Assembly: GCA_036405135.1 (NCBI GenBank)
Contig: DASWYF010000009.1
Span: forward strand, 62,001 to 126,000
Length of the DNA stretch: 64,000 nucleotides
From: Verrucomicrobiia bacterium
GTDB lineage: Bacteria; Verrucomicrobiota; Verrucomicrobiia; Limisphaerales; JAEYXS01
Direction: 5' to 3'
In this document: one piece after another, positions 51,815-63,802 of the stretch
Layout: each line of letters begins with the position of its first letter
Numbering within the stretch: position 1 is the stretch's first letter
Translations under genes and position numbers: made by a program
The notes under the pieces: generated by a model
What the model was told of the DNA's origin: nothing
Database searches by the model: none
The model's input: only the letters and a program-made list of their open reading frames with translations

Positions 51815-53290
51815 TCACACCAAAATATCCTTCACCACATGTCCATGCACATCCGTGAGCCGGAAGTAACGTCCCTGATACTTGAACGTCAGCCGCTCGT
51901 GGTCGATGCCCAGCAAGTGCAGCATCGTCGCGTGAAAATCATGCACGTGCACGCCCTTGTTCGTCACGTTGTAGCCGAACTCATCCGTCTCGCCATACAC
52001 CATGCCCGGCTTCACGCCGCCGCCCGCCATCCAGATGCTGAAGCAGCGCGGATGATGATCGCGCCCGTAATTCGTCGGTGTCAATTTGCCCTGCGAATAA
52101 TTCGTGCGACCAAACTCCCCGCCCCATACGACTAACGTATCATCCAGCATCCCCCGCTGTTTCAAGTCCTCCAGCAACGCCGCCGCCGGCTGATCCGTCT
52201 CCTGGCACTGACGTTTGATACCGCCCGGCAAACCACCGTGCTGATCCCACCCTTGATGGTAAAGCTGGATGAACTTTACCCCGCGCTCTGCCAATCGCCG
52301 CGCCTGCAAGCAATTCGCCGCGAATGTCCCCGGCTTCTTCGCATCTGGCCCATACATATCCAGCGTGGCTTGCGATTCCTTCGAAAGATCCATCACATCC
52401 GGTACGCTCGTCTGCATGCGATACGCCATCTCGTACTGCGCGATGCGCGTATCGATCTCCGCATCATGCTGTTTCGTCGCGCTGTGTTCGTGCAACTCAC
52501 GCAAGCGATCCAGCATCAGACGCCTGCCTTCACCATCGATGCCTTCCGGATTGTTCAGGTAAAGCACCGGATCTTTGCCCGAACGGAATTGCACGCCCTG
52601 ATGCCGCGACGGCAGAAACCCGCTGCCCCACAAGCGTGAATAAAGCGGCTGATCCGTCTTGCCCTTTGTAATCAACACCACGAACGATGGCAGATTCTCG
52701 TTATCACTCCCCAAGCCATAATGCAGCCACGCTCCGATGCTCGGCCTGCCGGAAAGCTGCGAGCCCGTCTGTAAAAACGTGATCGCCGGATCGTGATTGA
52801 TCGCCTCCGTGAACATCGAACGCACGATGCACATGTTGTCCACCTGCTTCGCCGTATGCGGCAGTAGCTCACTCACCCACGCCCCGTTCTTCCCGTGCTG
52901 ACCAAATTTGTAGATGGACCCCGCCAGCGGCAGCGACGCCTGATTGCCCGACATGCCTGTTAGCCGTTGTCCTTTGCGCACGGAATCCGGCAATTGCTCG
53001 CCATTCCGTTCATTGAGCAACGGCTTGTAATCAAACGTCTCGAGCTGCGATGGCCCACCGCTCATGAAGAGATAGATCACCCGCTTCGCCTTCGCCGGAA
53101 AATGCGTTTGCCCGTTTAGAATGCCCTTGTCCGCCGCTTGCGTCGTCGCACCAAACGAACTCATCGGATTCACCAAATTCGCGAGCGCAATGCCACCCAA
53201 CCCCAGACCGAAACGGTTCAGGAACTGGCGTCGGCTCAAGCCCAGCGCATCCAGCGGCCCCGTGCAAAGTGGTTGATGGTTCGTATTCAT
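51815..53290 (-). CDS. Tat-exported DUF1501 protein
   Basis: A 491-residue protein. A Tat signal ([20 protein letters not shown]) leads into DUF1501, a sulfatase/alkaline-phosphatase-fold family: [57 protein letters not shown] and [15 protein letters not shown]. In Planctomycetes and Verrucomicrobia it is nearly always next to a PSD1/DUF1549 protein, as here, where its ATG overlaps the PSD1 stop by 4 bases. Exact activity is unknown. Confidence 0.93.
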
Positions 53291-56200
53291 CGCTTCATCA
53301 CAAATTCATCAAAGTTCATCACCACACTAACCAGCATGGTCGTCGCCGCCACATCGGCAACGTCCAACGTCGCATCCGCCTTCGCTTCACCTGTCTTCAA
53401 AAGTTTCTGCGCCGCCTCCGTATTCTTGGCGAACCGCGCCTTCTGTTCCGCAAACAACTCCTGCAAAATCTTCACCTCCGCCTTGTCCGGCTCACGACTC
53501 GTCAGCAGACGGAACCCGTTCACGATCCGCTTCTCTACCGCCAGCGGTTCCGCCTTCACCAACTTTTCCGCCAGCACCCGTGAAGCCTCAACAAACTGTG
53601 GATCATTCAGCAGCACCAACGCCTGCAACGGTGTCGAAGTCGTCTCGCGTTTCGCTGTGCACACCTCGCGGGTCGTCGCATCAAAACTCACCATGGATGG
53701 CGGCGGCGAGGTGCGACGCCAGAACGTGTAGAGACTGCGCCGATACAGCTTCTCGCCCTTGTCCTGCACATACGTCTTGCCCGTGCCCGCCTCTTCCCAC
53801 AGACCCGCCGGTTGATACGGCTTCACACTTTGCCCACCGATGGTTTGGTTCAACAACCCGCTAACCGCCAGTGCTTCATCACGTATCTGCTCCGCCGCCA
53901 GCCGATGCCGCGCACCGCGTGCCAGCAAGAGATTCTCCGGGTCTTTCGCCACCTGTTCCTCGCTCGGCACCGAGGTCTGTCGATACGTCGCCGACATCAG
54001 GATCAGCTTGTGCATCGCCTTCCGGTCCCAGCCCGTTTCCATGAACTTCCGCGACAGCCAATCCAGCAATTCCGGATGCGTCGGACGCTGGCTCTGCGCA
54101 CCAAAGTCCTCCACTGTGGAAACCAGTCCGCGACCGAAATGCAGTTTCCAGATGCGGTTCACCGCTACGCGCGCCGTGAGCGGATTGCGCGGGTCCGTCA
54201 TCCATTGCGCCAAGCCCAGACGATTCTTCGGATACTCCTTCGGCATCGCGAAGATACGTTCCGGCGTCCCCGGAAACACCTCATCCCCCGGCGCATCATA
54301 CGCGCCGCGCTTCAGCAGATACGTCGGGCGCGCTTTCGGCAATTCCTTCATGATCATGATCTGCTGCACGTTGTTCGCCAGTGCGTTCTCCTCCTCGCGC
54401 AGCTTCTTCAACTCCACCTGTGCTTGGCGATACTCAGCATCGTGACGATTCAGATAATACGCGAACAGCGAGTCATCCGCCGTCACCTGCGGCTCGGTCG
54501 CCAGCAAACTCGTCACCTCCAGTTCCGTCAACGCCGTGTCATACACCGTAAATTCATCGATCATCCCGTTCTTGAAACCATTGTCGCGGAAGCGCCCTGC
54601 CAATGTCAGCGGCGTATTGCCCGCATCCGCATCGCCCCATTCCGCGCGATGAATGATATCCTGCGTCAACCCATCCCGCACCGTATCCATCGCCTGTTTC
54701 TTGCCGTTCACATAGAACGTCACCCCCGCTGCCTTGCTGGAACCATCATACGTCACCGTGAGGTGCGACCACTCATTCAGCGGCAACATCTCCTTTGCGC
54801 GCACACCGATCGCATCACCCGGCCAGAAATGGATGAGCCCAAAGAACGGTTTGCCATCCTCCAACACCAACTCATACCCGCGACTTCCCGAATCGCTCCA
54901 CGCCCGAGAACGATGGAACACCACCGCGCGCGGCTGCTTCTCCGTCGGCTTCACCCACAGCGTGAAGCTGAACGAATCCGTGCGCTTAAATTCACCCACA
55001 CCCTTGCACTCCACTTCGTTATCGCCGCTGAATTGCAGCGCCTGCCCCACTTTGCCCGCGACGGCCTTCGGTGCATCCATCAGCACCGCCACATTGGTGC
55101 CTACCGCATTCGGCGTTTTGTTATCCTTGATCTCATCCAGTGCGAACCGCGCCACCGGCTTCACCTCCGGCATCGCTACACCCGGATTCTTCCATTTCTC
55201 AAACCGAGTCCGCGCTTCACCCTTCATCAGTTCAAGTTGAACCTCGTGCACACTGATGAAGCTCTTCAGTTTTTTATGTTTCTCCTCCTGATCATCCTTG
55301 TAGAGACTCAAAGCCGGTGTCGGTGTCGCTTTCGTGAAATGCGAGTATAACCCCGATTCATCGATGTTATCGAAGAACGCGCTCAACGAATAATAATCCT
55401 TTTGGCTGATCGGATCATACTTGTGATCATGGCAGCGCGCACACTCCAGCGTCAGGCTCAGGAACGCCGTGCCCATCGTGTGTACGCGATCCGACACGTA
55501 CTCCACTCGAAATTCTTCATCGATGCTCCCACCCTCATTCGTCTGGCGATGCAAGCGATTGAATGCCGTGGCCAGATACTGATCCCGCGTCGGCTTCGGC
55601 AACAGATCCCCCGCGAGCTGCCATGTGATGAACTTGTCGTAAGGCAGATTCTCATTGTAGGCCTTGATCACCCAATCACGCCACGGATACATGTTCATGT
55701 CCACGTCCGCCTGATAGCCGAACGTATCCGCATAGCGCGCCAGATCCAGCCACTCCCGCGCCATCTGCTCGCCGTAGGCAGGCGATTGCAACAACCGATC
55801 AATCACCTTCTCATACGCCTTCGGAGATTTGTCCGACAAAAACGCATCGATCTCTGCTAACGTCGGCGGCAACCCCGTGAGATCAAACGTCGCGCGCCGA
55901 ATCAACTGTTCCTTCGTCGCTTCCGTTGATAGCTTCAGCTTCTCTTTCTCTAATCGCGCCAAAATAAATTGATCGATCTCATTCTTCACCGCCCGCGTGT
56001 TCTTCACCTTCGGCGGCGTCACCTTCGCGATCTCTGTGTAGGCCCAGTGCTTACCCCACGGCGCTCCCTGCTCTACCCACCGTTTCAAAGTCTCCTTCTG
56101 CGCCTCCGTCAGCGTGCGATGCGATGACGGCGGTGGCATCACGTCGTCTTCATCCTTGCTCAGGATACGCACGATCATCTCGCTCTGGTCCGGCTTGCCC

Positions 56201-56448
56201 TTCACGATGTTCGCCACGCCCTTGTTCACGCGGAAAGCGCCTTCTTCCGTATCCAGTCGTAGCTTCGCCTTCCGCCCTTCATCATCCGGCCCGTGGCAAT
56301 GAAAGCATTTGTCCGATAAAATAGGCAAAACGTCCTTGGAGAAATCCACCTTCCCCTCCGGCGACGCTCCCTGCGCACCCAATAAACACAGGCTCAGGCT
56401 TCCGATCAAAGCCAGCCACTTTGCCTGTCTGTTCGCCATCATGTGCAT
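53287..56448 (-). CDS. PSD1/planctomycete cytochrome c domain protein (DUF1549-LamG-DUF1553)
   Basis: A 1053-residue exported protein. Signal peptide [20 protein letters not shown], then a cytochrome-like domain with CFHCH (C48, C51, H52), which would bind haem c. DUF1549 spans about 150-370 ([54 protein letters not shown]). A LamG-like sugar-binding insert (about 430-640) follows, and DUF1553 (about 740-1030; [42 protein letters not shown]). It is coupled to the DUF1501 gene. Such pairs are thought to act on sulfated or complex polysaccharides in the outer compartment; not demonstrated. Confidence 0.94.
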
Positions 56449-57052
<604 letters not shown>

Positions 57053-57624: not shown

Positions 57625-59241
57625 TCATCCATACCGCCCTTCAAAAAACTCTGACCACCCCGTCACCTTGCTGAACCCCATCGGCTTCAGCTCCCCCAAT
57701 CGTGCCCCTTTCGCCACCGCACGCTGAAAGAACTTCTCCTCCGCCCGCTCGTTGATCTGGAATACCCGCAAAGGCTTAAGCTGCCCCAGATCCCGGCAGT
57801 ACGCGTAATGCGGGTTCTCCCGCAATGCCTGCTCGATAACTGCATCAAACCTCTCCGGCAAATTCCCCTCGGCATACAATGTATAATGAGGATTACTCTC
57901 ATCATCGGTATCCGGCGCCAGAAACACAAAATCAGGCCGCTTCTCCAAGCCCGCCAAAGTTTTCTGCAACACTTGCACCACGAACGCCTCCGCCAGCTTC
58001 TCCCCACACAGATCGGACACATTCCCGCTGCGTCCGAGAAACCGCAGTGATGGCGTCCGCCCCACAAATCCCTCGACCCGCACACTATCGCGCAACCGAT
58101 ACCGCCAAAGCCCTCCCGCCGTCGTCACAATGACCTCATATGTCTGCCCCTCCTGCAATTCATGCACGCGCAGAATCTTCCCTCCGTCATCCATGAACTC
58201 AAAGAAATGCGACTCCACCGCCACGGGATTCTGACCGCCAAACGGAATCGTCACACACGCCTCCGTCGCAAGCAACCCCTTCGCCTGAATCCACGTCTGC
58301 GAAAAAATGCTCCTAAGTTTGGCAGCCGCCAATCCCGCCGCCCCATCCTCCCAGCAACTGATCAACTTTAACTCAGGCCAGATCAACTCCGGCTTGCGCG
58401 CATCCATCTCCGCCAATTCAGCCGCTCGCCTTGGAAGCGGTCGCAGATTCAATGCCTCAATGACTTCACCCGGCACACGCCCGCCATGCTTGCACGTTCC
58501 TTTCCGTATATCCGCCAGCAAATCATCCCATTCCGTCACCTTTTTTTCCAACAGCAGCGTGAGAAACGAGGGGTGCCACACCGAGATCAGCCGCAGATCA
58601 CGCTCGCGCAACAGGCACAGCAATGTCAGATAGCGAAAACATTCGATATCCGAGACCTTGCCCAAGGCCGTCGGCACTGCCATCACCGCATTCGCCAGTC
58701 TCTGTCGCGTTCCGCCCAGATACGCCGTGTCCGTATCAAACCCGACCGGCACAACCGAATCCGTCTCCTGTTCAAAACCCGCGACTGGTGTTATCGACCA
58801 ATACGCTGGACCACCTGCGATCCCCGATGATTGCCGCAACAGATCAACCAGCCACGGCCCCACCGCCGCATTGAACTCCCCTTGCAACCCCGCCGTGAAT
58901 GGAATCAATTTTCTCGCTCCCGTCGAACCGCTCGTCGGCACCAACCGCGTCACCCGCTCACACGTCAGCACGTCCGCTTCCCCTTTGCAGATGCGTACGA
59001 TCCACGGCTCCAAATCCTCGTAGTCCATCAACGGCACTCGCTGTGCGAACGTCTCGTAATCATGGATGGATGCGAAATCATATTTCCTCCCAAAAGCAGA
59101 CGTCGCATTTGCCCGAAGATAGGTCCGCAACCGCTCCTGCTGCACTCTTTCAGGTTCCTGCAACGCCTGCGAAAAACGGCGATACGACGCCACATTCGCC
59201 GCGCCCCAGAGAAGGTTAGTTATGGTCGCAACAGGCTTCAC
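57625..59241 (-). CDS. GH3-family acyl-acid amido synthetase-like protein
   Basis: A 538-residue member of the GH3 family, which adenylates a carboxylic acid and joins it to an amino acid or amine. The ATP loop is TSGSTGARK (residues 103-111), and the second motif is GLWRYRLRDSVRVEGF, close to the plant GH3 pattern, followed by SLRFLGRSGNVSDLCGEKLAEAF. Length is normal. It starts with GTG 26 bases inside the end of the upstream GNAT gene, so it is coupled to it. Last gene of a five-gene overlapping cluster with two radical SAM enzymes and two acyltransferases. Its acid substrate may be made by those enzymes. Confidence 0.9.
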   Translation of the reverse strand: MKPVATITNLLWGAANVASYRRFSQALQEPERVQQERLRTYLRANATSAFGRKYDFASIHDYETFAQRVPLMDYEDLEPWIVRICKGEADVLTCERVTRLVPTSGSTGARKLIPFTAGLQGEFNAAVGPWLVDLLRQSSGIAGGPAYWSITPVAGFEQETDSVVPVGFDTDTAYLGGTRQRLANAVMAVPTALGKVSDIECFRYLTLLCLLRERDLRLISVWHPSFLTLLLEKKVTEWDDLLADIRKGTCKHGGRVPGEVIEALNLRPLPRRAAELAEMDARKPELIWPELKLISCWEDGAAGLAAAKLRSIFSQTWIQAKGLLATEACVTIPFGGQNPVAVESHFFEFMDDGGKILRVHELQEGQTYEVIVTTAGGLWRYRLRDSVRVEGFVGRTPSLRFLGRSGNVSDLCGEKLAEAFVVQVLQKTLAGLEKRPDFVFLAPDTDDESNPHYTLYAEGNLPERFDAVIEQALRENPHYAYCRDLGQLKPLRVFQINERAEEKFFQRAVAKGARLGELKPMGFSKVTGWSEFFEGRYG

Positions 59242-59953
59242 GTGATTGTGGTGCTACCATGCGTCTTCCGGCCCGCGTCAGGTTCTCCGCGCAAAGCTCC
59301 GTCAAGCACACGAGTTCATCCCCTTGCCCATGTCCCGGATTTAGCTTCAGGAATAATTCCACATGCGGATCATCCCTGCGCGATTCCGGCACCTCCCTCA
59401 ACTCCTGCCGCAACCGTTGCGGCTGCGAAAACCGCACGATGCCCGCCTGCTCATCATACCGTTCTCCAAACCGTTCCTTCGCCAGATGATCCCGCAATCT
59501 CATCATGTGTTGTGGATCCGCCTGTTCACAATGCGGATAAAACTCCCGCCAGAACACTGGTAGAAAGCGGTATGTACGAAACCCGGAAGAAAGCAGCAGC
59601 CAGTAATACTTCCCGCGCGGATAATGCAGTCGCAACTCGTTCACCGCCGTGATCCAACCACGCGCCAGCGCGGAACTCCCCCATGCCGCTGGGTCCACAA
59701 TCGTGTCTCCCGAATACACCACGCTCACCAACTCGCCCTCAAACGTCGTCTCATACACCAGCAAGGTCGAAAACCCCACCAACCGCCCCTCCTTGCAAAT
59801 CATTACCACCCAATTTTTCTCCGCCAGATCGCGCGCGAACTGTTCCGCCGTCACACCCTCAAAATGCTTTGCGAGCAGCCCGAGCATCTCGGCCATCTGC
59901 TCCGCTGTCAGTTCCTCACGCGGAACTGCCGTGAATGAATTGTTCGTGTTCAT
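59216..59953 (-). CDS. GNAT-like protein in the radical SAM / GH3 cluster
   Basis: A 245-residue protein. The N-terminal part resembles a GNAT fold (EEDTAEQ-like helices, VVMICKEGRLVGFSTLL, VYSGDTIVDPAAWGSSALARGW), but the acetyl-CoA loop is not textbook. YYWLLLSSGFRTYRFLPVFWREFYP is a distinctive aromatic-rich segment. The ATG at 59953 overlaps the upstream stop by 4 bases; one 6 bases earlier is possible. It may transfer an acyl group to the cluster product. Confidence 0.72.
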   Translation of the reverse strand: MNTNNSFTAVPREELTAEQMAEMLGLLAKHFEGVTAEQFARDLAEKNWVVMICKEGRLVGFSTLLVYETTFEGELVSVVYSGDTIVDPAAWGSSALARGWITAVNELRLHYPRGKYYWLLLSSGFRTYRFLPVFWREFYPHCEQADPQHMMRLRDHLAKERFGERYDEQAGIVRFSQPQRLRQELREVPESRRDDPHVELFLKLNPGHGQGDELVCLTELCAENLTRAGRRMVAPQSREACCDHN

Positions 59954-61071
59954 AACCATGCAACATCCAGTCCCAGTGGTTCCACCTCTCTAACCGCACC
60001 GCCTAAATCTTCCCATCTCACCACATAGATGCGGCTCACATACTCGCGGCAACTATACTCCCGCTGCATCATCCCCAAACGCGGATCCTCTGCAGCAAAA
60101 CCCACCGTCAAATATTCAATACCCCGTGTCCTCGCCACCTCTGCCAATCCACCAAGCAATTCCGTCAACGCCTCCGGCATTTTCGGATCCACCGCCAGCG
60201 GAGACACAAACGCATTCGCCAACGTCGAACCCACCGCTGGCAACACCGATGTCCCAAAGCAGCGCGCCGCCAGATTCACCCAAGGCCGCGCCAATGCCAA
60301 AGCACCGCCATACTCCCGGATCACCGTCTGCTTGAACGACCGCTGATCCCACACCGCCCCCATCGCGACCCACTTCCTATTCACCCGCACGCCTCTAAAA
60401 TCTTCCCTCCGCAATCCCAACTCAGACAGTGCCTCCAACTCTTGCACCGTCCAGCACTCAGCGAATTGACGGTCCGCGTTTTGCTCATTCAGAAAACTCA
60501 CGACTTCATCCACTGTCGGAACCGCCAATGATTGCCCCGCCCTCTTCATCCCTTTCACCGGCAGTAACAACGTCACCAGTTCCCCAATGAACTCATAACG
60601 CGGCATCCCTCGCACACCTCGCTCCAGAAACGCCCGCGCCCTCGCATTATCCGCCGCGATGCTCGTAAAATAATAATCCGCTGGATCGGCCTGTTGCATC
60701 TCCCGCAAGACTTCATAACCACGCCTCACGATATCGAACCGCCCCGCCACCCGTTCATCCAGCCGCAAGCCACCCAGATAACCCACACGACTAGCCCGTC
60801 CATCCACAAAACGCCGCCGCACAGCACAACTCCCCGCACTGACCACCACACCGCCTTCTTTCGCGATAATCGTCTGCTTCTCCATGCCCGGCAGATCGGC
60901 ATCCGCAAAATAATCCGGCTCACGCTCCATCGTCAGCGTCACCGCGCCGCGCATGGGATTCTCGCGCAAAAGCCGCCTCAAACCGGCATCATCCTCCGGT
61001 TTGGCCAGCGCAAAAGCGACGCGGGAAGCGCGTGCCTTCGTCAGTTTGCGGTCAAGAGTTGCCCCTGCCAT
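59950..61071 (-). CDS. GNAT-family N-acetyltransferase
   Basis: A 373-residue protein with an N-terminal GNAT domain (about 17-165: FALAKPEDDAGLRRLLREN, GSCAVRRRFVDGRASRVGYLGGLRLDERVAGRFDIVRRGYE, SIAADNARARAFLERGVRG) and a less clear C-terminal half (RGIEYLTVGFAAEDPRLGMMQREYSCREYVSRIYVV), perhaps a second, degenerate GNAT fold. It overlaps the radical SAM gene upstream by 31 bases and the next gene by 4. It probably acylates an amine or hydroxyl on the cluster's intermediate. Confidence 0.82.
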   Translation of the reverse strand: MAGATLDRKLTKARASRVAFALAKPEDDAGLRRLLRENPMRGAVTLTMEREPDYFADADLPGMEKQTIIAKEGGVVVSAGSCAVRRRFVDGRASRVGYLGGLRLDERVAGRFDIVRRGYEVLREMQQADPADYYFTSIAADNARARAFLERGVRGMPRYEFIGELVTLLLPVKGMKRAGQSLAVPTVDEVVSFLNEQNADRQFAECWTVQELEALSELGLRREDFRGVRVNRKWVAMGAVWDQRSFKQTVIREYGGALALARPWVNLAARCFGTSVLPAVGSTLANAFVSPLAVDPKMPEALTELLGGLAEVARTRGIEYLTVGFAAEDPRLGMMQREYSCREYVSRIYVVRWEDLGGAVREVEPLGLDVAWL

Positions 61072-62396
61072 GATTCATCTCCCAAAGGATAATGGTCCCG
61101 CAGGCTCACATCATTTCGATGCAGCGCATTGATCACGTAAAAATTCCGCCACATGAACCAGTCGCTCCGGTTCACCGGCGCCATGCTGCGTTGCAAGATG
61201 CTCGGCCACGAATAGAATTCACGTCGTGCCGCCAGGCAGTTCTGCCGCAGCGTCTCCGGCTCCATGCCTCGCGGCTGAAACGGGATGCGGTTGTAACTAT
61301 ACCGGTCATCCAGCCACCAGTTCTCGTAGAGCAAGCGTCCCTCACCCTGCAATCGCTTGTAGAGCGGCGTTCCCGGAAACGGCGTCAGATGATTGAACGC
61401 CGCGATATACATCGCGTGTTCTCGCGCAAACGTGACCGTCTCGGCAAAACTCTCCGGTGTATCCCCATCATAACCGAACACAAACGTCCCATACACCCGC
61501 ACGCGGTGCTTGTGCAGATTCGCCAGCGCCTTCTCGAAACCGCCCCGCATCGTGTTGAACGATTTGTTCATCACCTTGAGATTCGCCGGGTTCAGGCTCT
61601 CAAAACCGATCAATACACCCTGGCAACCGCTGCGCACAATCAGTTCCAAAAACTCATCATCGTGCGCCGCGTTGATGCTGGACTGGCTCACCCACCGTAT
61701 CTTTAGAGGGATGAGAGCACGAAAGAACTCCTTCGCCTGTTCCAGATTCGACGTGATGTTGTCATCCACAAAAAAGAACAGCTTCCGCGAATCCTTCAGT
61801 GGTCGGATATCCTCGATGATGTCATCAATCGGTCGCCGCGTCTGGGTGGAATTGAAGACCGTCTGGATCGCGCAGAAATCACATTTGAAATGGCATCCCC
61901 TGCCCGCCTCCACCAAACCGATAGGCAGATACCGCTTGCCCCGGAAGATGGTGCGATCTGGCTTTAATTCCTGCAAAGAAGGCCGCCCCTCACCACGATA
62001 AAATTTCTGCAATCGCCCATGCCTCGCATCATCAATGACCTGCGCCCAGACCTGTTCCGCCTCACCGCATACCACCGCCTCCGCATAACGCGCCACTTCA
62101 TCCGGGCACAACGTCGCGTGAAACCCGCCCATCACCACCGGTATCTTGCGCCTGCGATACTCGGATGCGATCTGATACGCGCGCTTCGCCGTGTAAGTCT
62201 CCACGCTGATCGCCACCAGGTCCGTCGCCTCATCGAACGGGATGATCTCCATGCGATCATCGTAAAACCGCACCTCCACATCCTTCGGTGTCAATCCCGC
62301 CAACGTGGCGGCTGGCAGAGATTCCATCTGCCACGTGCGGATATATTTCTGCCCCGGTCGGCGACCGATGCACGGATGGATGATCGTGAGTTTCAT
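61041..62396 (-). CDS. B12-binding-type radical SAM protein (second of two)
   Basis: A 451-residue radical SAM enzyme with an N-terminal cobalamin-binding-like Rossmann domain (about 1-130; VVMGGFHATLCPDEVARYAE) and the cluster motif C168-x3-C172-x2-C175 (GCHFKCDFC). The barrel includes FFFVDDNITSNLEQAKEFFRALIPL and TFVFGYDGDTPESF. The DxHxxG cobalamin motif is absent, as in many such methylases and ring enzymes. A C-terminal helical domain (LQRSMAPVNRSDWFMWRNFYVINALHR) resembles DUF4070. It is a tandem paralogue of the gene at 62393 and overlaps it by 4 bases. Confidence 0.9.
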   Translation of the reverse strand: MKLTIIHPCIGRRPGQKYIRTWQMESLPAATLAGLTPKDVEVRFYDDRMEIIPFDEATDLVAISVETYTAKRAYQIASEYRRRKIPVVMGGFHATLCPDEVARYAEAVVCGEAEQVWAQVIDDARHGRLQKFYRGEGRPSLQELKPDRTIFRGKRYLPIGLVEAGRGCHFKCDFCAIQTVFNSTQTRRPIDDIIEDIRPLKDSRKLFFFVDDNITSNLEQAKEFFRALIPLKIRWVSQSSINAAHDDEFLELIVRSGCQGVLIGFESLNPANLKVMNKSFNTMRGGFEKALANLHKHRVRVYGTFVFGYDGDTPESFAETVTFAREHAMYIAAFNHLTPFPGTPLYKRLQGEGRLLYENWWLDDRYSYNRIPFQPRGMEPETLRQNCLAARREFYSWPSILQRSMAPVNRSDWFMWRNFYVINALHRNDVSLRDHYPLGDESWQGQLLTAN

Positions 62397-63802
62397 CCTT
62401 GTGTCAGTGAAGCTGCCATCACCTCAGACTTTGCCACTGGAGCCATCGGCATCGCCTGTGAACCGCCGATGATCCAGTCGCAATTATAGAACCGGCTGAG
62501 ATTATGCGCATAGAAACGATAACCCAGATTCGTCCCCAGCTTAACCGGCCATGGCGCGGGTGAATGTCTTATCCTCTGCACGATGGAACGGACGCTGTAA
62601 GCATGTTTCCACGCCGCCTCTGCTCCCATCTGCAATTCCTGCACGCTCATCTTCTTCGGCTGAAACACCACGTGCTGGCCGTCATATAATTCCCAGTTCC
62701 GCGTGAGCAACCGTCCTTCCGCCACCAGCCGTTTATAAAGCGCTGTGTTCGGAAATGGTGTGACAATCGCAAACCGTGGCAGATCGATCTTTGCCTGCAC
62801 TGCGAACTCCGCCGTTTTCAGAAAAACATCCGGCTCATCATGATCCAGCCCAAACACAAAGCATCCTTGTAACGCGATGCCATGCTCATGCAATCGCTCA
62901 ACTACCTTCGCGAATTTGTCTGGCGAATTGAACCCCTTGTGATTCTGCCGGAGATTCTGCGGCGAGATGGATTCCAGCCCCATCAACAAGCCCTTGCATC
63001 CACTGCGCTCAGCGAGCTTTAGCAACTCCGCATCATCCGCCAGCAACACCGTCGCCAGCCCATACCACTGCACCTTCAGAGGTATCAACGCCGTGAAAAG
63101 CTCTTTCGCATAATCACGATCGGCGATGATGTTCAGGTCCACGAAAATCAGCTTCCGCTGGCCAAGTTGCCGGATATCTGCGATCACCTGCTCCACCGGC
63201 TTCTGGTAAGGCTTACGCCCCCAAGCCGTCGGCACCACGCAGAAATCACAATTATGGATGCAACCGCGCGTGGCCTCAAAGACGCTGTTCGTCAGATAAC
63301 TGTCACCCGGTAACAACTCACGCCGTGCAAACGGCCGGTCAGCCAGATTCAACCCCGGTGCCTGATCATATCGCGGGCGTAGTTCACCTCGCGCAAAATC
63401 GTTTAGAAGCTCCGGCCAAGTATCCTCCGCATACCCCACCACAATGGCATCCGCATGTGGGGCTGCATCCTCGGGGATCAACGTCACATGCGGCCCGCCC
63501 AGCACCACTTTGATCCCGCGCTTGCGAAAATGATCGGCCAACTCATACGCTCGCACCGCCGTCCCTGTGATGACCGTCAGCCCGATGATGTCCGCCTCCA
63601 AGTCCAGCGGCACATCCGCGATGCCCTCGTCAAACAACTGCAAGTCCACTGGCAAGTCCGCCGGGATAAGCGCCGCCAGTGTCGTCAATGTGAGCGGCTG
63701 GTAACGCAATGACTTTTTCCAGATACCTCCCCGATGCCGGTACAGCGGACCCTTGGGTGAAACCAGTGCGATCTTCATCCGGGTATCGGGTTGCGCTTGC
63801 AT
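62393..63802 (-). CDS. B12-binding-type radical SAM protein (first of two)
   Basis: A 469-residue radical SAM enzyme, first gene of the cluster. Cobalamin-binding-like domain (about 10-140; VVLGGPHVTLIPEDAAPHADAI), then C181-x3-C185-x2-C188 (GCIHNCDFC), and a barrel with FVDLNIIADRDYAKELFTALIPLKVQW and GCFVFGLDHDEPDVF that mirrors its neighbour. The start at 63802 has a GAGAG 7 bases upstream; an ATG at 63778 is a shorter option closer to the neighbour's start. It may methylate or rearrange an unreactive carbon. An inverted repeat lies upstream. Confidence 0.9.
   Translation of the reverse strand: MQAQPDTRMKIALVSPKGPLYRHRGGIWKKSLRYQPLTLTTLAALIPADLPVDLQLFDEGIADVPLDLEADIIGLTVITGTAVRAYELADHFRKRGIKVVLGGPHVTLIPEDAAPHADAIVVGYAEDTWPELLNDFARGELRPRYDQAPGLNLADRPFARRELLPGDSYLTNSVFEATRGCIHNCDFCVVPTAWGRKPYQKPVEQVIADIRQLGQRKLIFVDLNIIADRDYAKELFTALIPLKVQWYGLATVLLADDAELLKLAERSGCKGLLMGLESISPQNLRQNHKGFNSPDKFAKVVERLHEHGIALQGCFVFGLDHDEPDVFLKTAEFAVQAKIDLPRFAIVTPFPNTALYKRLVAEGRLLTRNWELYDGQHVVFQPKKMSVQELQMGAEAAWKHAYSVRSIVQRIRHSPAPWPVKLGTNLGYRFYAHNLSRFYNCDWIIGGSQAMPMAPVAKSEVMAASLTQG

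Follow-up and report, generated by a model that had tools for sequence, protein, structure and literature searches.

A co-conserved and transferable five-gene set of two B12-binding radical SAM enzymes, two GNAT-fold proteins and a GH3 ligase as a candidate biosynthetic pathway

We analysed a 64,000-nucleotide stretch of a Verrucomicrobiia bacterium genome (assembly GCA_036405135.1, contig DASWYF010000009.1, positions 62,001 to 126,000 of the forward strand; hereafter the window), in which five open reading frames (ORFs) form an overlapping cluster. The source genome is 5.8 Mb, and among named organisms it is closest to Limisphaerales-type Verrucomicrobiota. The five ORFs lie on the minus strand in the order rS1, rS2, N1, N2 and GH3, each overlapping the next, by 4, 31, 4 and 26 bases along the cluster. 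The strand, positions and overlaps given in an initial annotation of this DNA were all confirmed in the ORF list. The features are as follows.

62393..63802, minus strand: rS1, the first gene, a B12-binding-domain radical SAM enzyme of 469 amino acids with CxxxCxxC at residues 181-188
61041..62396, minus strand: rS2, a paralogue of rS1, a B12-binding-domain radical SAM enzyme of 451 amino acids with CxxxCxxC at residues 168-175
59950..61071, minus strand: N1, a tandem-GNAT acyltransferase of 373 amino acids resembling N-myristoyltransferase, whose C-terminal residue is the conserved Leu373
59216..59953, minus strand: N2, a single-domain GNAT-fold protein of 245 amino acids, with an alternative start at 59959
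57625..59241, minus strand: GH3, a GH3-family ATP-dependent acyl-amide ligase of 538 amino acids with a GTG start
61041..61071, minus strand: the 31-base overlap of rS2 and N1

With the N2 ATG at 59953, N1 and N2 overlap by 4 bases (an ATGA junction); with the start at 59959 they overlap by 10. The overlap of rS2 with N1 has a median of 27 bases in relatives, counted from the matched start, similar to the 31 bases of the window.

When rS1 was used to scan 84,980 species genomes, 80 loci were recovered. All five genes were found in 34 of the 39 loci flanked by 6.5 kb or more on each side, and in 58 of 78 loci overall, the remainder being mostly cut by contig ends. Chance is excluded as an explanation, because 34 of 39 fully visible homologous loci keep the whole set. 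The co-conservation for which the initial annotation had proposed a search in Verrucomicrobiota and Planctomycetes was thus observed, and it extended beyond them to ten phyla. The order rS1-rS2-N1-N2-GH3 was kept in 48 loci, N2-GH3 came first in nine and was divergent in one. Pairwise distances of the five proteins were correlated across 52 loci (Mantel r 0.67-0.90, a level reached by no permutation out of 300). The best conserved part was the radical SAM pair, with a mean identity of 64% versus 33-41% for N1, N2 and GH3.

Within 289 Verrucomicrobiota genomes, N1 was present in 14, a strong rS2 match was present in exactly those 14, and the two were adjacent in 13. In the one non-adjacent genome (G080), rS1-rS2 lay on one large contig and N1-N2-GH3 on another. 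Two available congeners of the source organism lacked the cluster, and a genome of another family had all five genes, with rS1 81% identical. The rS1 tree spanned the ten phyla with 18 phylum-label changes (minimum possible 9, shuffled mean 42.9), so that it partly follows phyla, with several jumps. Some of these jumps may be misbinning, most rows being metagenome bins. Four loci titled Proteobacteria, Gemmatimonadaceae, Acidobacteria and Methylacidimicrobium (L042, L047, L061 and L064) had rS1 genes within branches of Limisphaerales-like or other Verrucomicrobiota, reflecting either transfer or misbinned contigs. A diverged Ruminococcus version (L111), from an anaerobic habitat, had duplicated radical SAM genes and an rS1 46% identical to that of the window. 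Carriers in culture include Chthoniobacter flavus, Neoroseomonas oryzicola, Zhengella mangrovi and Planctomycetota strain ZRK32.

Plasmids searched with tblastn yielded a complete eleven-gene version with five radical SAM genes (NZ_CP134684.1, 51417-63512; L126). It lies on a mobilizable IncF plasmid of 159 kb from a gull isolate of Citrobacter portucalensis. Its gene order was N2, GH3, rS1, rS2, N1, two radical SAM genes, PAP2, SnoaL-like, a fifth radical SAM gene and a fatty acid desaturase. No close copy of this cluster was found in 5,426 E. coli genomes. Two Acinetobacter baumannii records, filed as plasmids though chromosome-sized at 4 Mb, held EmrA- and EmrB-like genes, N2, GH3, a TolC-like gene and N1 in a row, without radical SAM genes (L127:7392-15098 and L128:6517-13098; the EmrA-like gene was seen in L127). 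The absence of radical SAM genes from this row indicates that N1, N2 and GH3 are a separable unit, there accompanied by an EmrAB-TolC-type export system. The five genes are a horizontally transferable unit that behaves as the modules rS1-rS2, N1 and N2-GH3, at times reordered or split. The initial annotation had read them as one unit; co-conservation bears this out, but the unit is modular, as the Acinetobacter row and the separate contigs of G080 show.

Both radical SAM proteins matched the Pfam models for the B12-binding domain (PF02310; rS1 1.2e-12, 48.1 bits; rS2 2e-8, 34.5 bits; both above cut-off) and for Radical_SAM (2.7e-15 and 3e-16). They are 40% identical to each other and have in common the CxxxCxxC motif and the segment ALIPLK-x-x-W, in agreement with their earlier description as tandem paralogues. 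The motif cysteines (C181, C185 and C188 in rS1; C168, C172 and C175 in rS2) were invariant in family alignments. From the cluster motif and the N-terminal B12-binding domain, rS1 and rS2 are predicted to be class B (cobalamin-binding) radical SAM enzymes, among which methylation is the commonest reaction. They share the domain order B12-binding, Radical_SAM and DUF4070 with BchE, HpnJ and PhpK-type enzymes, their best family matches, but scored well under the cut-offs of those families and hence form a separate one.

N1 had no Pfam match on its own sequence. Its AlphaFold2 model (predicted local distance difference test, pLDDT, 93) was aligned by VIA-align to the N-myristoyltransferase structure 4cax with a Z score of 23.9 and a root-mean-square deviation of 3.3 over 300 residues. 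Residues 13-373 superposed on 118-492 of 4cax, last residue on last residue, and the best 50 VIA-align rows were all N-myristoyltransferases; Foldseek also listed MAB_4324, a mycobacterial tandem GNAT, on top. The C-terminal residue of N1 was leucine in 65 of 66 homologues and methionine in one, whereas the last residue of rS1, rS2, N2 and GH3 homologues was freely variable. Genome searches added ten further Verrucomicrobiota copies, nine ending in leucine and one in methionine. The Citrobacter copy ended in leucine and the Acinetobacter copies in isoleucine. The initial annotation had called N1 and N2 GNAT-like; both have confident structural models with the GNAT fold, but N1 is not a generic member, since it has the tandem GNAT form of N-myristoyltransferase and its chain end is conserved.

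N-myristoyltransferase (EC 2.3.1.97) is the eukaryotic enzyme that moves myristate from CoA to an N-terminal glycine of proteins. Its C-terminal carboxylate serves as catalytic base (PMC7048800), a strategy that a 2016 review called unique to this enzyme within GNATs (PMC4964394). Eis, a type V GNAT of Mycobacterium, likewise uses its C-terminal carboxylate as a remote base (PMC8556138). Given the superposition to the last residue and the fixed chain end, N1 probably acylates an amine with its own C-terminal carboxylate as base, like these two enzymes. N1 shares the tandem GNAT arrangement with N-myristoyltransferase, and its conserved end superposes on the catalytic C-terminus, but N1 is bacterial, sits in a metabolic cluster and has no significant match to that family. 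Eis is a bacterial precedent for a C-terminal base in a GNAT, but N1 aligns end to end with N-myristoyltransferase instead.

N2 had a weak Pfam GNAT match only. Its model (pLDDT 94.6) matched GNAT folds at Z 12-13 and superposed on GCN5 and Nat-type protein acetyltransferases, and the best local fold matches included AAC(2') aminoglycoside acetyltransferases. A C-terminal extension, NPGHxxGDELVCLTEL, was conserved in the alignment. The GH3 protein matched all three Pfam domains of its family above cut-off (GH3 1e-50, GH3_M 7e-18 and GH3_C 3e-11, for the N-terminal, central and C-terminal domains), as its earlier assignment to GH3 implied, and its PDB profile matches included plant GH3 enzymes, down to 2.5e-36. 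Nucleotide motif I is TSGSTGAxK, motif II is ATEA with an invariant Glu where YGSSE is expected, and motif III has the family consensus GLYRYRLGD, as in plant GH3 enzymes, and reads GLWRYRLRD in the window. The substrates of GH3 enzymes are small acids and amino compounds, and one relative, OlsH, N-acylates ornithine with fatty acids, starting ornithine lipid synthesis (PMC12493201). Against the OlsH family model (NCBIfam NF052613) the cluster protein scored 46.4 bits, below the cut-off of 620. The OlsH-OlsI pathway of Singulisphaera acidiphila (PMC12493201) resembles the cluster in having a bacterial GH3 ligase, which forms an amide in an aminolipid operon, and an alpha/beta hydrolase gene, carried also by relatives of the cluster; it differs in that OlsH partners OlsG and OlsI, whereas the partners here are GNATs and radical SAM enzymes.

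Accessory genes were counted up to 8 kb from the core after shadow ORFs had been removed. The families found were desaturase (32 loci), PAP2 (26), SnoaL-like (25), Rieske (21), alpha/beta-hydrolase-like (17; labelled by eye from a GxSxG-like motif, with no Pfam match), an unknown membrane protein (9) and AurF-like (7), and many loci added a second radical SAM pair. The best named relative of the Rieske protein was methylsterol monooxygenase, below cut-off. The desaturase, PAP2 and Rieske genes of relatives point to a lipid-like product. A search for Rieske, desaturase and alpha/beta hydrolase homologues elsewhere in the genome of the window gave no convincing match, and the five-gene form is therefore a minimal version. 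Three Anaerolineae loci had a related extra gene of about 390 amino acids inside the cluster (L067:17405-18559, L070:13901-15082 and L071:14906-16063); the neighbour set to which these genes belong contained three radical SAM proteins of the SPASM type, a tentative link.

With the gene set, the folds, the conserved chain end, co-occurrence, modularity and transfer directly established, we think it on balance probable that the cluster encodes an undescribed biosynthetic pathway for an amide-linked small molecule, probably lipid-like. The reactions and their order, as we infer them, would be these. rS1 and rS2 would change one building block in its carbon skeleton, with C-methylation the likeliest reaction. 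GH3 would adenylate a carboxylic acid, fatty or similar, with ATP and then join it to an amine, a step modelled on plant GH3 enzymes and OlsH (PMC12493201). N1 would move an acyl chain, probably a long one, from a thioester to an amine, with its C-terminal leucine carboxylate as the base, and N2, closely linked to GH3, would make or prepare a second N-acylation. In other bacteria, the optional second radical SAM pair and the desaturase, Rieske, PAP2, SnoaL-like and AurF-like genes may tailor the product. The lipid-like class of the product would follow from N1 and these accessory genes.

The individual families are known already; the pathway as a whole appears to be new. The initial annotation knew of no described pathway with this combination, and we found no paper combining GH3 with the partner families of the cluster in the open-access literature, although a description elsewhere is possible. 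Stieleriacine, an N-acyl tyrosine made by a planctomycete, was considered for that reason, and no link of its biosynthesis to the cluster was found. A ribosomally synthesised and post-translationally modified peptide was rejected as the product, there being no room for a small conserved ORF between the overlapping genes.

Several results weigh against this reading. The best scores of the radical SAM proteins against named NCBIfam radical SAM families were 79.7 and 88.1 bits versus a cut-off of 577.6 (HpnJ), and the PhpK family gave 87.8 bits versus 600; no cluster protein reached the cut-off of any curated family in this search. With scores so far under all curated cut-offs, methylation is therefore a default guess. 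An Rfam search of seven loci gave no match, to a cobalamin riboswitch or to any other family. For N1, the Pfam NMT_C model matched one of 42 family members at a non-significant E value of 0.31, the NMT model matched none, and the N1 family profile, run against the PDB up to E = 10, returned no N-myristoyltransferase. Alignment of the N1 profile to one human NMT1 sequence, which had been checked against PDB chains, was colinear but weak with hhalign (P = 0.047), and the hmmsearch score of 5.9 bits exceeded all 500 shuffles; both are hints only. Because the sequence kinship is weak, the claim is that N1 works like an N-myristoyltransferase, not that it is one. Finally, the neighbouring genes on which the lipid class is based are missing near the cluster of the window and, for the three tested, elsewhere in its genome.

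The same evidence bears on three other explanations. Instead of a secreted metabolite, the pathway might make a modified membrane lipid, for example an aminolipid whose chains are methylated or cross-linked. This would suit a GH3 protein from the family of OlsH, the starter of ornithine lipid synthesis (PMC12493201), weak as its NCBIfam match was, as well as the desaturase, PAP2 and alpha/beta hydrolase genes alongside the cluster in relatives and the weak scores of the radical SAM proteins against hopanoid- and ladderane-associated families. We nevertheless consider it unlikely, since a special metabolite would explain the patchy spread (14 of 289 genomes) and the plasmid copy better than a bulk lipid would, and the Acinetobacter version adds an exporter of the major facilitator superfamily type.

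Under a protein-modification reading, N1 and N2 would attach acyl groups to lysines or the N-termini of proteins, and the radical SAM enzymes would alter a protein, with methyl-coenzyme M reductase as the precedent. This reading would agree with the structural matches of N1 to N-myristoyltransferases and of N2 to protein acetyltransferases, and one radical SAM family among the listed matches methylates a protein. It appears quite improbable, given that GH3 enzymes work on small acids and amino compounds (PMC12493201), that the set is accompanied by desaturase, Rieske, PAP2 and efflux genes, and that the cluster has no conserved target-protein gene. We regard a detoxification or resistance cassette, with a toxic amine or acid inactivated by the GNATs and GH3, as very improbable. 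The AAC(2') matches of N2 and the EmrAB-TolC-type pump of Acinetobacter would fit such a role, but a burden of two to five radical SAM enzymes together with oxygenases would be unusual for it, the strong conservation of the radical SAM pair suits a fixed biosynthetic intermediate, and N1 resembles a long-chain acyltransferase.

A small-molecule pathway remains our preferred reading. A set that stays together in ten phyla and has reached an enterobacterial plasmid must have a useful product, and the Citrobacter plasmid and cultured carriers leave the pathway open to experiment. If the reading is true, it would open a pair of cobalamin-type radical SAM families with a conserved substrate. Should N1 act as proposed, C-terminal carboxylate catalysis would be widespread in bacterial small-molecule synthesis, with a bearing on the origin of eukaryotic N-myristoyltransferase. 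More tentatively, and with considerable doubt, N1 could be the first prokaryotic family with the N-myristoyltransferase mechanism, perhaps near the bacterial source of the eukaryotic enzyme, within a mobile pathway that crosses phyla and makes a new class of fatty amides modified by radical SAM enzymes.

Around the cluster, a divergent response-regulator-like gene lies upstream of rS1, and a convergent ORF lies downstream. Also downstream, at 51815-56448, are two genes on the strand of the cluster, identified by eye as a planctomycete-type cytochrome and a DUF1501-like gene; none of the downstream ORFs looks to belong to the cluster unit. Between them and the cluster, positions 56586-56646 of the window are a perfect tandem repeat of the 7-base unit TCGATGT in 8.7 copies, which opens spurious ORFs reading MFDVRCSMFDVRC.

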